This document shows, piece by piece, positions 2,087-11,976 of a stretch of 29,955 bases of DNA. Where the stretch lies: IMG/VR virus record IMGVR_UViG_3300037961_000908, positions 1-29,955 of that record; one strand, written 5' to 3'. The notes beneath the pieces are model-generated. The model had not been told where the DNA came from and ran no database searches. It saw only the letters and a program-made list of their open reading frames with translations. Position 1 is the stretch's first letter; every line of letters starts with the position of its first letter. This stretch comes from a virus. The translations under genes and the position numbers were made by a program.

Positions 2087-3613
2087 TCAACGCACAATTC
2101 TGGACCACCCTGATTGTTTTGGCATCGGTCTACCGTTGAACACATCAAAATTTCTTTTAGCAACCACAACATGAGAAGGTTTTTGATTGCTCATCAATGC
2201 TCTACCTTCTCCTGCACCTAACATTAAATACTGCAATGCATCGTGTATGTGAGAGTACATATTTTTATCAGGCTTATCTGCATATCGCTCACCACTTACC
2301 TCCATACGTTTGTAAGCATAACCACCATCGAACCCTTTAATAAGCTGAGAACACCTACGGTCAATTAAAAATGCAGGTTTGCCTTCTGTCATTTTGTTAA
2401 GTTGCGAATGTACTGCTTCAAGTCTGAGATCCACCGAATTGCTCGGGGCGGGAAATGCGCGTAGACCAGCACCTCTAAGTATATGAAAAGGGGTAGATTC
2501 GTCCGTCTGCGCCCTAAAATCACCTGCTGGATCACCGTATATATAGACATCGGAAACTTGAGAAAACCTTGTAGCAATTTCATTTCTAAGAACCTCTGCA
2601 AACCTTACTATGCCCATATCAAAAGCAACAATCTCTGATTGTATAAGCCACCTGTTTCTTATCTTCTGTCCAAGAACTGCGGCAGGAGTAAGCCCAAAGT
2701 CTATACCAACATACAAAGGATAGCCTGCGGCAACAGGTATTTCTTCTTTAGCAACATGAGTTTCCATTACAAACATAGGGTACACTGGCTTTCCATCTTG
2801 GATAGAGCCTAGCTTATTCATTACATAAACATCAATCCAAGATTTAGTTTTACCTTGTATTAGATTTGGATAATAGCTGTCTAGCATATTAGAAATGTTT
2901 TCAGCCTGATTATTTGGCTTGTAGCTTTCTACTTCACCATCCTCATTATAGACTTCTTTCATACCAGAAGGCTGAGTAAAGAATCGCCAGTTATCAGGCT
3001 TGACTAGCATCTTGGCTTGCTCTCTAGGAATGTGATCTGGCACTGGCACTTCACCTGACATAATAGGCCACCAATGATCTTCTTCTGGTGCGTTAGTATC
3101 TGCAATTACACCTGTCCAACTCGGACCACCATCACGCATAGAAGGGAATCGCCCAACCCTCATAGTACACGCATCAATAATACTCTTTGGTATTTCTCTG
3201 GCTTCGTTTATCCAAATACCAGTAAGCTCGAGGGATAAAAGTTTTTTTACATCCTCGGGTCGATCAAGAGCTAAGAAGATAATCTCTAAGTCTATCTCTC
3301 CCTTTTTAATGTGATGTGTATAAGGAACAGACCAAGTAAACTTACCCCACTCTGATTCTGGAAACCAATCAAGCCAAGTCTTTATAGTAGTTGTTCTAAG
3401 CTGTGGATTTGTGTTTCTTATAATAGCCCATCGACTACGCCTTAAGCCTTGAGCATTCTTCTCTTGCATAAGAGCACGTCTAAATATTTCCACACAACAG
3501 CCAACAGACTTACCAGAACCAACAGGACCACGCACTCCACGAAAGAACGTATTGTCTTTCATAAAAGATTTAAGAATATCACCATCAGGTTTATATTTAA
3601 ATTCAATTGTCAC
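2087..3613 (-). CDS. terL: Terminase large subunit (ATPase and nuclease)
   Basis: This 508-residue protein is the DNA-packaging motor and headful or end-cutting nuclease. The ATPase domain has a Walker A motif GPVGSGKS at residues 29-36, a Walker B-like segment GIWINEARE at 132-140, and a candidate coupling motif ending in ADTN near 171-174. The C-terminal RNase H-fold nuclease shows the expected acidic residues: D305 in YVGIDFGLTPA, D361 in YIYGDPAG and D458 in HDALQYLML. Length and domain order are normal for the family. The start overlaps the preceding small gene by 11 bases. The small subunit lies about 1.7 kb upstream, separated by seven small genes instead of being adjacent. Confidence 0.97.
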   Translation of the reverse strand: MTIEFKYKPDGDILKSFMKDNTFFRGVRGPVGSGKSVGCCVEIFRRALMQEKNAQGLRRSRWAIIRNTNPQLRTTTIKTWLDWFPESEWGKFTWSVPYTHHIKKGEIDLEIIFLALDRPEDVKKLLSLELTGIWINEAREIPKSIIDACTMRVGRFPSMRDGGPSWTGVIADTNAPEEDHWWPIMSGEVPVPDHIPREQAKMLVKPDNWRFFTQPSGMKEVYNEDGEVESYKPNNQAENISNMLDSYYPNLIQGKTKSWIDVYVMNKLGSIQDGKPVYPMFVMETHVAKEEIPVAAGYPLYVGIDFGLTPAAVLGQKIRNRWLIQSEIVAFDMGIVRFAEVLRNEIATRFSQVSDVYIYGDPAGDFRAQTDESTPFHILRGAGLRAFPAPSNSVDLRLEAVHSQLNKMTEGKPAFLIDRRCSQLIKGFDGGYAYKRMEVSGERYADKPDKNMYSHIHDALQYLMLGAGEGRALMSNQKPSHVVVAKRNFDVFNGRPMPKQSGWSRIVR

Positions 3614-5299: not shown

Positions 5300-5677
5300 T
5301 CATTCCAGATCTATCGTCACATGAATATCCCCTGCGACCTGCACTTGTGACCTATCTATCGGCTTGAAGCCTGCTCGGTCTAACAGATCTTTGCTCGCCT
5401 CTAGCTGTACATACTCTGATTTCGCATTGCCTGATAACTGTGAGATCTTGCCGAGCGCCTTCGCAGCCTGCATTCCAAAAGCTTCTGACATTGCTTGCAT
5501 TAAGTACTGTTGCACATGAGGAGTTTTCATAGCCTTGTATGCTGATACTCTGCCACTGTTACCGTCAGCGTATCCTGCCTCATGTGCAGCTTTTGTGAGA
5601 TTACCGCCATTTGCTACAAACGCTTCAACTAAAAGTCTTTGTCTGCGTGTGCATTCCCTTACCTTGATGTTTGCCAT
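5300..5677 (-). CDS. terS: Terminase small subunit
   Basis: This 125-residue protein has the layout of small terminase subunits. An N-terminal helix-turn-helix region at about residues 8-60 contains CTRRQRLLVEAFVANGGNLT, KAAHEAGYADG and AYKAMKTPHVQQYL. An oligomerisation helix follows, then an acidic C-terminus (GDIHVTIDLE). The 'Q..lv.afv.nggN.t.AA..AGY' signature is typical of the Terminase_2 family. It recognises the packaging site on the genome and hands DNA to the large subunit. The ATG has a GAGG ribosome binding site. This is the first gene of the leftward unit and lies behind a sigma70-like promoter. Confidence 0.85.
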   Translation of the reverse strand: MANIKVRECTRRQRLLVEAFVANGGNLTKAAHEAGYADGNSGRVSAYKAMKTPHVQQYLMQAMSEAFGMQAAKALGKISQLSGNAKSEYVQLEASKDLLDRAGFKPIDRSQVQVAGDIHVTIDLE

Positions 5678-5694: not shown

Positions 5695-5717
5695 CCCCCC
5701 TCTCCCTCTCTCCCCCC
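5695..5717 (-). repeat. Polypurine leader, nearly mirror-symmetric
   Basis: Read on the minus strand, this is 23 consecutive purines. It has a G6 run at each end and AGAGAGGGAGA between them, so it is close to a mirror repeat. It lies between the predicted -10 box and the terS start and would sit in the 5' untranslated leader. Such tracts can form triplex or G-rich structures, or act as an extended Shine-Dalgarno region. Which of these applies cannot be read from the sequence. Confidence 0.6.
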
Positions 5718-5718
5718 A

Positions 5719-5749
5719 TTTATAGCACCGCAGAAAAGGGCTTTGTCAA
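5719..5749 (-). promoter_or_regulatory. Sigma70-like promoter driving terS and the late genes
   Basis: On the minus strand there is a consensus -35 box TTGACA (5749-5744), a 19-base spacer and a TATAAA -10 box (5724-5719) preceded by TGC, an extended -10 element. Spacing is two bases longer than ideal, which the extended -10 can offset. It faces the terminase genes and would start transcription near 5712. Confidence 0.7.
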
Positions 5750-5765
5750 CGCACAATTTGGGCCA

Positions 5766-5805: not shown

Positions 5806-5873
5806 CCGCGCTACTCATGAATCAAGCCGCGCAGCGTCTTGACCGAAGGTGAGTATCGCATTGTCCGAGAATG

Positions 5874-5895
5874 GAAGGACATTGCGCTGTCCTTC
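5874..5895. repeat. Perfect 8-bp hairpin GAAGGACA / TGTCCTTC
   Basis: The arms 5874-5881 and 5888-5895 are perfect inverted repeats around a 6-base loop. The heptamer GAAGGAC and its complement recur as the outer ends of the large inverted repeat at 5958-6123, so this sequence appears four times within 250 bp. No T tract follows, so it is not a typical terminator. Confidence 0.6.
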
Positions 5896-5957
5896 GCAAA
5901 CCATCCTATCGCAAAATAGAATGAAATGATTATTTTGTGAGGGATTGGATCAACCAC

Positions 5958-6123
5958 GAAGGACGGGGCAACCCTCTCTACGTCACGCCTCAAAAGTTCA
6001 CAACCCCATAAAGGGGTCAAGCGCGCAGCCGCATTCGCGTCTAGCCGAAGGCTGCGCGTGTGAACTTCAAGCCGCGCAAAGCGCGATTGAGGCGTGACAG
6101 AGGGTTTGATTACCCCGTCCTTC
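5958..6123. repeat. 166-bp nested inverted repeat with branched folding potential
   Basis: Four nested perfect arms face each other: GAAGGACGGGG (5958-5968) with 6113-6123, ACCCTCT (5971-5977) with 6099-6105, GTCACGCCTC (5982-5991) with 6089-6098, and AAGTTCACA (5994-6002) with 6059-6067. That is 37 base pairs in total. Inside the innermost stem lie two further hairpins: ACCCC/GGGGT (6003-6007/6013-6017, loop ATAAA) and CGCGCAGCC/GGCTGCGCG (6022-6030/6050-6058). A third small hairpin, CGCGC-AAA-GCGCG, lies at 6073-6085. The element is GC-rich compared with the genes around it and lies between the divergent transcription units. It could be a replication origin, a packaging site, a structured leader RNA or a palindromic mobile repeat; sequence alone does not decide. 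Confidence 0.9.
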
Positions 6124-6188
6124 TTTGGTCGGTCCAATGCGGGTCGGGTTTAGTGTAAATTATTTATTTTGTAACAAGGATTATTAAA

Positions 6189-6755
6189 ATGACTATATAT
6201 CAAAACTGTCTTGAAGAAGCTTTAGCTAACAATGACCCTATGTCAGACGTTGAATTGATTGCTAATCTTGCGGCATCATTAACAGAGGTTGAGAGTATTG
6301 AGGGGCGCAGCACCTATACAATCAACCGTTATAGCGGTTTACAATATGCCGTATTAAATGCCATCGCTAATGCCATCAATAGCCGCGTCAACAGTCAGTC
6401 AACTTACTGGTTTACTACTAGCAATGGTGAAGATAAGCATAAATGCTCAGGCATTAAGCGAAGGCTTGGCGAGATCAAGGTATCTTTAGAGGACGCACAG
6501 CGTCAGGATAAAGATAACGAGATCACAGCCAATGATATAAACCGTTTACGCTCAGAGCGAGATCGGTTGATCGATGAATACAGTGCAGCAATGGAACTAT
6601 ATCAGGCAACTGTCGGTATCATTGAAGAGATCAGAGGCAAACCCTTCGTTCCTTACAAATTGCGTGAGACGCACGGCGAAGCACCTTCAAAGAAGGTGGA
6701 CGCCAAAGCGTTGAAGGCTGAAGTCAATGAGATTGACAAGATCCTAGCAGCTTAA
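6189..6755 (+). CDS. First early gene; 188-residue helical protein, function unknown
   Basis: The product has an N-terminal helical region with acidic residues (EEALANNDPMSDVELIANLA) and a middle segment around residues 45-80 rich in Asn, Ser and Tyr. A coiled-coil-like stretch follows at about 87-150 (DINRLRSERDRLIDEYSAAM), then a Lys-rich tail ending in EVNEIDKILAA. There are no Cys clusters or membrane segments. The start has only a modest AAGGA ribosome binding site. The gene directly follows the 166-bp inverted repeat and is closed by a strong terminator, so it is probably a single-gene transcript. First-in-line early genes often act on the host, but nothing here shows that. Confidence 0.75.
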   Translation: MTIYQNCLEEALANNDPMSDVELIANLAASLTEVESIEGRSTYTINRYSGLQYAVLNAIANAINSRVNSQSTYWFTTSNGEDKHKCSGIKRRLGEIKVSLEDAQRQDKDNEITANDINRLRSERDRLIDEYSAAMELYQATVGIIEEIRGKPFVPYKLRETHGEAPSKKVDAKALKAEVNEIDKILAA

Positions 6756-6761
6756 AGTTGA

Positions 6762-6792
6762 GGGGGGTTGAAAGACCCCCCAAAAATTTTTT
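6762..6792 (+). terminator. Rho-independent terminator after the first early gene
   Basis: A perfect 7-bp stem GGGGGGT (6762-6768) / ACCCCCC (6775-6781) closes a TGAAAG loop. It is followed by five A and six T (6782-6792). It lies seven bases after the stop of the 6189 gene. Confidence 0.88.
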
Positions 6793-6871
6793 CGCTGCTT
6801 CGCAGCGAATTGAACGGTGCGTACCGCCATAGCGGTATCGCTTGCGCATTGATGATGCGCTACATAGCACC
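6791..6871. other. Cluster of hairpins downstream of the terminator
   Basis: Four perfect inverted repeats follow one another. TTCGCTGC/GCAGCGAA (6791-6798/6802-6809) comes first. Then a 5-bp closing stem GGTGC/GCACC (6816-6820/6867-6871) encloses two hairpins, TACCGC-CATA-GCGGTA (6822-6837) and GCGCAT-TGATG-ATGCGC (6844-6860). The second part folds as a small three-way junction. No convincing gene covers it. It lies between a terminator and the next promoter, so it may be a DNA-level structure or a short RNA from either direction. Confidence 0.55.
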
Positions 6872-6923
6872 CTTGATTAATTGTGACTTGCTATTTTATT
6901 CGCCCCTTCCTCGACAGTGGGGG

Positions 6924-7334: not shown

Positions 7335-7370
7335 TTTTAATTTCCATCGTAACATGAGGAGAAGAATATG
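7335..7370 (+). repeat. 36-bp direct repeat, copy 2
   Basis: This copy matches 7106-7141 at 34 of 36 bases. Its upstream part still reads VLISIVT-stop in frame, the exact C-terminus of the membrane peptide gene. No start codon is available, so it looks like the fossil end of a duplicated copy. It ends with the ribosome binding site and ATG of the DUF932 gene. Confidence 0.85.
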
Positions 7371-8210
7371 TTGGATTTTACTAATCCTACTTGGGATTTC
7401 CCAGTAGAACTACAAGAAACTTTTGACCGTGATGGTAAAAAGATCGAAGGTAATCGTGTGGTTGTTCGCACTGATACTGGCGAACACATGAGTCGTGGTG
7501 TTGGTGACAAGTACAAGATCATTACGCACAGTGATGTAGTCAATAGCATCATGGATTCTATTGATGATGTAGCTAATACTCTTGGCACTGCATACGAAGA
7601 AAAGATACACATCATTGATGGTGGTCGTAAGCTACGAGGTGAGATTAACTTTCCTGATTGGAAAATCGAGCCAATGGTAGATGACATATGTACATTTCGT
7701 ATTCAGTTTTACAATTCATACGATACCAGTTGGGCATTTCAACATATGGCTGAAGCATTCAGACTGTGGTGTAAGAATGGTTGTACTACACCTAATACTG
7801 TAGCTAAGACTTGGGCAAAGCATACGACTAACGTATCTGTTACAGCATCATCAGCTAAAATCTTAAAAGGTTTTGAAGCATTTAAACTCAATGATGTGTT
7901 ATTCAAATCATATGTTGATAACAGAATTAGTTATGAAACAGCAGAAATGTTTATCAATGACATGCTTTGCAAAGTAAAACAACGTGGTAAATTAGGACAA
8001 CCACATTTCAATATGCGTAGACGCGAAGAACTCTTGCGTATGTGGGATGAAAATAAAGCTAACATTGGTAGCAATCAATGGGCATTGTACAATACACTAA
8101 CTGAGTGGGCTACACATACAGATCACTTGGGCAATCCAGAAAATGCTCGTCGGTTACGTGAGAATGAAATTGCTAAAGCAATGGATTCAACAAGGTGGTA
8201 CGCATTATGA
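7368..8210 (+). CDS. DUF932 family phage/plasmid-like protein
   Basis: The 280-residue product fits the DUF932 family, which is frequent in phages and plasmids and usually encoded in replication or recombination blocks; its biochemical role is not established. Matching features are the N-terminal region VVVRTDTGEHMSRGVGDKYK near residues 31-50 and the GDKYKIITHSDVV motif. The core around residues 80-150 contains FRIQFYNSYD, FRLWCKNGC and TTPN, followed by a helical C-terminal half. Length is normal to slightly short. The ATG is behind GAGGAGAAG. Its stop overlaps the next start by ATGA. Confidence 0.9.
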   Translation: MLDFTNPTWDFPVELQETFDRDGKKIEGNRVVVRTDTGEHMSRGVGDKYKIITHSDVVNSIMDSIDDVANTLGTAYEEKIHIIDGGRKLRGEINFPDWKIEPMVDDICTFRIQFYNSYDTSWAFQHMAEAFRLWCKNGCTTPNTVAKTWAKHTTNVSVTASSAKILKGFEAFKLNDVLFKSYVDNRISYETAEMFINDMLCKVKQRGKLGQPHFNMRRREELLRMWDENKANIGSNQWALYNTLTEWATHTDHLGNPENARRLRENEIAKAMDSTRWYAL

Positions 8211-10031: not shown

Positions 10032-10691
10032 ATGAAAACGCAAGTTGGAAGTTCAACTGCGAAGTCTGTATATTGTGCGCTTGCAACATATGTAGACTCA
10101 GAAGGTCAGTGCTATCCAAGCATTCAAACACTATCGTCTGATACCGAGTTGCATCGAGCGACAGTTATCAGAGCAATCAATTACTTAGTGCAACATGGTT
10201 TCGTGGAGCGCATGAGCAATCATCGCGCAGCCTCAACGCGATACCAATTAACCATATGGAAGGGTGAATTAATGAGTGATGATAGTCGCACAGTGCGACA
10301 CGAAGTTATTAGTAATATTATTAATATCGATACATATATATCTTATAGTCGCAGAGAGCGACTACCCTATGAGATACAAGAGTTCTTAGAATTCTGGCAA
10401 GTGTATCCGAGACGCAAAGCCAAAGGTCAATCAAGGCAAGCGTTCGTTCGTGCGTGTGAAAAACAAAAAGCTTCTGTAATTATTGAGGCAGCTAGGCTCT
10501 TTGCAGAAAGTGTTAGGCATGTGGAGAAACAATACATTCCGTATGCATCAACGTGGCTCAACGGTGAGCGTTGGGAAGATGATCTTGATGAGATCGAAAC
10601 TAATTCTGATAAGCTTAATTCTATACTTAATATGGATGTGGCTGCGGAACTAGATAATGTTGTAGACATTAGAAAGATTGGTAAGAAATGA
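10032..10691 (+). CDS. Replication-initiator-like protein with N-terminal winged helix
   Basis: The 219-residue product has an N-terminal HTH_36-type winged helix (about residues 5-75), including YPSIQTLSSDTELHRATVIR and INYLVQHGFVERM. A variable linker follows. The C-terminal module at about 118-182 contains EFWQVYPRRKAKGQSRQAF and YIPYASTWLNGERWEDD. This architecture is that of phage replication proteins that bind origin DNA and load the host helicase (lambda O or DnaT/DnaD-like). The start is weak: the nearest GGAGAAG (9994-10000) is 30 bases upstream, and a 3-codon ORF (ATG 10024) ends on the start codon. Its stop overlaps the next gene by ATGA. Confidence 0.8.
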   Translation: MKTQVGSSTAKSVYCALATYVDSEGQCYPSIQTLSSDTELHRATVIRAINYLVQHGFVERMSNHRAASTRYQLTIWKGELMSDDSRTVRHEVISNIINIDTYISYSRRERLPYEIQEFLEFWQVYPRRKAKGQSRQAFVRACEKQKASVIIEAARLFAESVRHVEKQYIPYASTWLNGERWEDDLDEIETNSDKLNSILNMDVAAELDNVVDIRKIGKK

Positions 10692-11193: not shown

Positions 11194-11976
11194 ATGGAAC
11201 GCAAAGGATTTATTGGCGGCAGTGATGCAGTCACAATTATGAGTGGTCAATGGTATGATCTGTGGGAAGTTAAGACAGGTCGCAAAAAACCAGATGATCT
11301 ATCAGATAACTTAGCTGTGCAGTTGGGCATACACACTGAGAGTTTTAACTTACAATGGTTTGAGAAAGAAAAAAATTGTGTGCTCGAGCATCATCAGTTT
11401 GAGTACAAAGAACAGTACCCAGATATTAACTTGACCTTGAAGGGTACAGTTGATGCGCATTGGGGTGCTGCAATTGTTGAGGCTAAACATACAAATGCAT
11501 TTACAAATATGGATAAGATGTTGGCATACTACATGCCGCAGCTACAGTTCTATATGTTTCTAGCTAAACAAAATGGTTGTTATCTTTCTGTTATCTTTGG
11601 CAACAGTAAGTATGAATCATGTCATGTATCATATGACAAAGCATATTGGCATCGAATGTTTGATTGTATCAAAGAGTTCAATGGGTATGTCCAAAGGGAT
11701 GAAGAACCTATTGGTTTCGGTGAGCCAATTGCTACTGAGATAAATCATATCCCAGTAGACCAGATGGTAGTTCGTGATGCATCTACAGATAATATGTTTG
11801 TAGATAGAGCAGCTACCTATATTAAGTATCATCAACAATCTATTCAGTTTGAGAACGCTAAGAAAGATCTCAAGAACATGATTAATGATGATGAGCGTGA
11901 GGTATACTGCGACCAGTTGCAACTAAAGCGCAGCAAAAACGGTGCAGTTAGAATTAATATAAGGAATAGAGTATGA
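11194..11976 (+). CDS. YqaJ-type viral recombinase exonuclease
   Basis: The 260-residue protein is a lambda-exonuclease-like 5'-3' nuclease that makes single-stranded tails for annealing. Seen in order are IGGSDAVTIMSG at residues 7-18, LGIHTE with E49, GTVDAHW with catalytic D87, VEAKHT with E96 and K98, and YMPQLQFYMFLA with Q116 and Q118. These are the YqaJ-family active-site motifs. The ATG follows GATGAGGTAAAGT. The stop overlaps the start of the annealing protein by ATGA, the usual pairing of exonuclease and single-strand annealing protein. Confidence 0.92.
   Translation: MERKGFIGGSDAVTIMSGQWYDLWEVKTGRKKPDDLSDNLAVQLGIHTESFNLQWFEKEKNCVLEHHQFEYKEQYPDINLTLKGTVDAHWGAAIVEAKHTNAFTNMDKMLAYYMPQLQFYMFLAKQNGCYLSVIFGNSKYESCHVSYDKAYWHRMFDCIKEFNGYVQRDEEPIGFGEPIATEINHIPVDQMVVRDASTDNMFVDRAATYIKYHQQSIQFENAKKDLKNMINDDEREVYCDQLQLKRSKNGAVRINIRNRV

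Follow-up and report, generated by a model that had tools for sequence, protein, structure and literature searches.

A nested inverted repeat between terS and the first rightward gene of a phage genome, probably part of a structured leader RNA

What is the role of a 166-bp nested inverted repeat that lies beside the terminase genes of a marine phage? The repeat occupies positions 5958–6123 of the window, by which we mean the whole stretch of 29,955 nucleotides that was analysed (IMG/VR record IMGVR_UViG_3300037961_000908). A reading made from the sequence alone had offered four roles: a replication origin, a packaging site recognised by the adjacent small terminase, a structured leader RNA of the first early gene, or a palindromic mobile element. 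It had also placed the repeat in a divergent non-coding region, which is correct, as the element sits in a 511-nt gap with terS (5300–5677, minus strand) on one side and ORF1 (6189–6755, plus strand) on the other. The leader RNA is the best supported of the four roles, since relatives have a large fold at the equivalent place, coupled in most of them to the RBS and start codon of ORF1, although the RBS-proximal switch found in those relatives is absent from the window. The genes and signals around the element are the following.

2087–3613, minus strand: terL, leftward
5300–5677, minus strand: terS, small subunit of the terminase; as the divergent neighbour it anchors the slot
6189–6755, plus strand: ORF1, 188 aa, the presumed regulated gene, of no known family, with the SD sequence AAGGA at about 6177
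6762–6781, plus strand: intrinsic-terminator-like hairpin after ORF1
7368–8210, plus strand: DUF932 protein, rightward block
10032–10691, plus strand: O-like replication protein, rightward block
11194–11976, plus strand: RecE-like exonuclease, rightward block

Judged by its gene content, the rightward block from ORF1 on would comprise the early genes. The terminator after ORF1 is not universal, being found by a strict scan in 15 of 53 cases against a background of 17 of 280. A second set of stem-loops lies at about 6790–6872 (plus strand), after the terminator-like hairpin and before the next genes, and strong folds between ORF1 and ORF2 occur in several relatives too.

The terS side of the gap carries two further sequences. 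An invariant 23-mer, CCCCCCTCTCCCTCTCTCCCCCC (G6AGAGAG3AGAG6 on the terS strand), is located just upstream of terS at 5695–5717 (minus strand). It matches exactly in 87 of 174 loci, and at least 119 viral stretches contain it unchanged. It is possibly the terS transcript start, a G-quadruplex or triplex, or a terminase site. The conserved box TGTCAACGCACAA at 5717–5756 (minus strand), kept in many relatives, reads on the minus strand as TTGACA with GCTATAAAT as a -10-like box, and by its sequence is probably the terS promoter.

The inverted repeat is real, and its best fold extends outward to 5944–6138. The 166 nt at 5958–6123 have an MFE of -98.6 kcal/mol, compared with -52.9 ± 4.4 for dinucleotide shuffles (z -10.45, 0/200). 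Four perfect arm pairs had been described, of 11, 7, 10 and 9 bp; all four exist, but two of them are longer, 8 rather than 7 bp and 12 rather than 10 bp. The two enclosed hairpins and the third hairpin on the right side are located at 6003–6017, about 6021–6058, and 6073–6077/6081–6085. The element is indeed GC-rich in an AT-rich genome, with 59% GC against 39% for the window. Its parts, and the stem-loops upstream of it, are listed here.

5944–6138, plus strand: nested, branched hairpin (MFE -114.2 kcal/mol), which would be the chief structured domain of an ORF1 leader RNA; kept in loci L004 and L005
5958–5968 with 6113–6123, plus strand: outer helix, 11 bp, perfect
5970–5977 with 6099–6106, plus strand: second helix, 8 bp, perfect
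5982–5993 with 6087–6098, plus strand: third helix, 12 bp, perfect
5994–6002 with 6059–6067, plus strand: AAGTTCACA, 9 bp, perfect, equivalent to helix P4 of relatives, which have GTTCGCAA/TTGCGAAC there
6003–6017, plus strand: inner hairpin 1, ACCCC-ATAAA-GGGGT
about 6021–6058, plus strand: inner hairpin 2, its tip missing from both arms in L005
6068–6085, plus strand: CAAGC linker (6068–6072 region) and right-side P5-like hairpin CGCGC-AAA-GCGCG (stem 6073–6077/6081–6085); relatives have GCAAGC and then a hairpin
5806–5861, plus strand: upstream stem-loop that L005 retains and that can still be recognised in L046; L004 has other hairpins instead
5874–5895, plus strand: stem-loop GAAGGACA-TTGCGC-TGTCCTTC, with single pairs compensated in L004 and L005 and one pair broken in each
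5905–5943, plus strand: stem-loop enclosing the proposed -10 box, with several pairs broken in L004/L005

The promoter boxes TTCGCA and TAGAAT, proposed earlier in the upstream part, reach a score of 9/12; hits of that quality number 5 in the region and 3.2 ± 2.0 in its shuffles, so the assignment is weak. The -10 box TAGAAT sits within the predicted stem-loop at 5905–5943. Cross-pairing of 5874–5895 with the outer arms was considered and rejected, because comparison finds it in the window and not in L004 or L005.

The relatives compared are IMG/VR loci and one cultured phage, Pelagibacter phage Hodr. A TerS scan kept 80 loci of 591 relatives, and an ORF1 scan kept another 80, largely on contigs already in the TerS set. 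Hodr is the closest cultured relative by terminase (TerL 66%, TerS 52%). The relatives, Hodr included, have a common layout of terS, a low-energy fold and ORF1, followed in most loci by a DUF932-sized ORF. The slot is filled by a long, branched hairpin whose sequence turns over heavily. The Hodr fold has a z of -6.4; its outermost helix, formed by TTTTCCTCCTTTGG and CCAAAGGAGGATAAAA, ends immediately ahead of the ATG and covers the Shine-Dalgarno sequence (SD/anti-SD p 0.01). MEP301 and the Roseobacter CRP phages were set aside, having single genes in common and not the layout.

L004 and L005 carry the element of the window itself, at 96% and 82%. In L005 two C-G pairs become U-A and A-U, both in the third helix, and the tip of inner hairpin 2 is lost by one deletion that takes both arms; in L004 one A-U becomes G-C. 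These three double-compensated pairs stand against four main-domain pairs broken in L004, L005 or both, among them one pair of the third helix broken in both loci, and the comparison gives a mixed result for the stems. Covariation in the wider family is much stronger. The hairpin modules next to the element differ between L004 and the window. In two otherwise similar terS-ORF1 leaders, L080 has the inner module GTTCGCAA/TTGCGAACTGCAAGC and L072 has a different hairpin, which suggests module exchange. The end of ORF1 is present at both ends of the 34.2-kb contig of L004 (also L084/L086); the contig is therefore probably a complete genome assembled with overlapping ends.

In the main group of relatives, the leader consists of an anti-SD (GTTCTCC in several lineages), the 5′ arm GGCCACCTCGC, P3, P4, the linker GCAAGC, P5, P2′ and the SD, in that order. 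The two strands of P4, GTTCGCAA and TTGCGAAC, surround a variable apical part. The TTCGCAA/TTGCGAA pair of the P4 motif is concentrated in leaders, which hold 84 of its 140 occurrences in 468 kb. The P2′ hairpin, GCGAGG-GTGGT-CCTCGC, which most relatives have in their 3′ arm, ends 18–25 nt before the AUG in nearly all main-group leaders. Its 5′ strand has two alternative partners, its own 3′ strand or the 5′ arm about 160–310 nt upstream of the start codon. The complementarity of 5′ arm, 3′a and 3′b, with gaps allowed, exceeds that of shuffled leaders (p<0.05) in 17 of 23 representatives, with a combined Fisher p of 4e-16 that is indicative, the representatives being hand-picked and partly of shared ancestry. 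The three strands change together: CCCC/GGGG/CCCC in L029, CCAACCTCTTG/CAAGAGGGTTGG/CCTCTTG in L069, TTTATCTCCGT/ACGGAGATAAA/CTCCGT in L052 and ACCATACAGGCA/TGCCTGTATGGT/CAGGC in L055. Relatives can thus form two mutually exclusive structures that use the SD-adjacent strand. Predicted SD pairing is 0.6–1.0 in most relatives, and in several lineages the outer helix is predicted to sequester the SD and AUG; an SD/anti-SD test without gaps reaches significance in some lineages only.

Alignment A3 keeps the chosen pairs in 100% of cells, with 28 double-change cells compared with 11.5 ± 3.2 in shuffles (0/500) and 0–14 in slid controls; these counts reflect a single division into two subgroups, and the choice of pairs came from folds of the same sequences. 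RNAalifold on the sequence alignment A4 recovered helix P4 alone, because P3 and P5 misalign.

The subclade of the window keeps the inner stems and a P4-P5-like core. The covariance model R1, built without the window, scores best at 5996–6075, precisely where that core lies, a weak match (E 0.057 in 701 bp), and a search of the whole record with the covariance model gave no match. The window, like L004 and L005, has neither P2′ near the SD (window 5′-arm p 0.19) nor a clear anti-SD (window SD/anti-SD p 0.55), and its SD is predicted to be only about half paired. Lacking P2′, with a half-paired SD and a weak model match, the window has a leader identified by position and fold. The RBS switch is seen in relatives only, and for the window we infer the mechanism. 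With the relatives taken into account, we read ORF1, the first early gene, as probably having a long, structured 5′ leader RNA whose main domain is the element.

The inverted repeat might instead act as DNA, its cruciform or single-stranded hairpin serving as a site for replication initiation, recombination or protein binding, or template switching might correct its arms, and the RNA fold would then be a by-product. The arms are near-perfect palindromes, TTCGCAA and TTGCGAA of the P4 motif form an inverted pair by themselves, the whole leader has no wobble preference for the ORF1 strand, and the sign of the GC skew switches in the region of the element. The skew switch, however, coincides with the change of gene direction. 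P2′ is confined to one side, keeps a constant spacing to the AUG and has a G.U bias, and the outer helices take in the SD and AUG in several lineages, which counts against a DNA site. The replication origin proposed earlier has no positive evidence in its favour: there are no iterons or tandem repeats at or near the element, none clear in the O-like gene (one two-copy repeat is found there), and the GC skew tracks the direction of transcription. We consider a DNA-level role unlikely.

Which strand would carry the RNA was examined by wobble pairs and by folding. Mismatches in P2′, read on the ORF1 strand, are G.U in 8 cases and A.C in 1. This bias, together with the fixed spacing of P2′ to the AUG, its one-sided location and the SD pairing, favours an ORF1-sense RNA, and the loops are purine-rich on the plus strand. 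Over the whole leader, in contrast, the antisense strand folds better after correction for composition, in 50 of 56 cases (z -7.1 vs -5.3), whereas in the controls (E. coli 6S, RNase P and rRNA pieces) the sense strand folds better in 16 of 18. Isolated mismatches in long stems are A.C in 35 cases and G.T in 15. Since A.A and A.G mismatches also exceed shuffles, a preference for A at mismatches may explain the statistic that favours the antisense strand, or the long stem may be under a DNA-level or antisense constraint. A wobble-asymmetry test on pairs common to both strands was discarded: restricting it to the intersection takes out both G.U and A.C, which leaves the test invalid or of low power.

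An RNA of the terS strand, either a regulator of the ORF1 mRNA or part of a longer late leader, would fit the better antisense fold, and A.C on the plus strand is G.U on the minus strand. A promoter-like site at 6159–6187 (minus strand) is at chance level. Against such an RNA, the promoter-like boxes of terS are found downstream of the element, and the P2′ wobble bias and purine-rich loops favour the plus strand; we regard it as quite improbable. A pac or cos site recognised by the adjacent small terminase is very unlikely. The element adjoins terS in all relatives, with the invariant 23-mer nearby at 5695–5717, but contig ends are scattered around the tract in 61 contigs, with no clustering near it that would mark a fixed or cos end, and the arms change in sequence while staying paired, something superfluous for a site recognised by its sequence. 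A REP- or MITE-like palindromic mobile element, suggested by a GC-rich palindrome in an AT-rich genome and by modules that differ between L004 and the window and between L072 and L080, is hardly credible for an element that keeps the same position in relatives, has a single copy in its 44,787-bp (44.8-kb) record (self-hits only) and has no DNA match in 50,697 phage records.

For the ORF1 leader RNA, the relatives suggest how it could work. An early promoter would transcribe the leader, which would fold on itself. With the 5′ arm paired to the strand next to the RBS, the outer helix would close over the SD and start codon and keep ORF1 off; with the local hairpin formed, that helix would open and ORF1 could be translated. 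The change might be triggered by the ORF1 protein, by cleavage with RNase III, by co-transcriptional folding or by a host factor. In the subclade of the window the inner stems are kept and the RBS-proximal switch is missing, so that we infer there only a leader that would control expression or stability of the ORF1 mRNA.

ORF1 itself gives few clues. Its net charge is about zero, which fits an N-like basic antiterminator poorly. The predicted structure of main-group ORF1 is confident (pLDDT 90), a helical hairpin with a further C-terminal helix, and its nearest PDB folds are generic hairpins including Rop, none of them significant. The model of the window ORF1 is of poor quality, yet has a similar helix order at the end; comparison did not demonstrate homology of the two proteins. 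A tblastn search of phages with a main-group ORF1 as query gave no match, Hodr ORF1 as query among phages matched itself only, and an ORF1 scan of GTDB genomes found one marine MAG contig. A bolder version of the leader reading, which we regard as a minor possibility, is a widespread RNA switch of marine phages that gates the first early protein by the partner exchange described above, with the Rop-resembling (not significantly so) ORF1 perhaps binding its own leader.

Rfam 15, searched with the window and 20 relative loci at gathering and relaxed thresholds, gave no family match, the best sub-threshold hit reaching 15 bits of 100. No description of such an element was found in the open literature searched (open-licence full texts). 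If the leader reading is right, a widespread group of marine phages, a cultured one on Pelagibacter among them, controls its first early gene by a large undescribed RNA structure, in which pairing is kept although the sequence changes. Rfam would gain a new family, and there would be a testable handle on how early expression is timed in hosts that are streamlined and have few protein regulators.

The element can be compared with several known RNAs. The phi29 pRNA, a packaging-motor RNA of about 170 nt, is similar in length and also lies near packaging genes, but the present phage has ordinary TerS and TerL, its element has no Rfam match, and the element precedes an early gene. The HK022 put antitermination RNA is likewise a structured RNA of an early phage transcript, with two hairpins in about 65 nt, whereas the present phage element is about 200 nt and, in most relatives, is coupled to the RBS. 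The phage lambda N leader has the order pL, nutL, RNase III hairpin, N and tL1. Both leaders are structured and precede the first early gene, access to the RBS is plausibly set by a large hairpin in each, and in the window and some of the relatives ORF1 is followed by a terminator-like hairpin. The ORF1 hairpin is, however, far larger, and in several relatives it pairs with the SD; ORF1, with its near-zero charge, is also not basic and rich in arginine. RBS-sequestering riboswitches and autogenous leaders differ in that the present element has no known aptamer or ligand and no Rfam match, and that the window is without the switch strand; they agree in the one SD-adjacent strand with two mutually exclusive pairings in relatives. 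Judged from its sequence, the element appears to act like an RBS-controlling leader while belonging to no described family tested, and we read it as a new RNA family.
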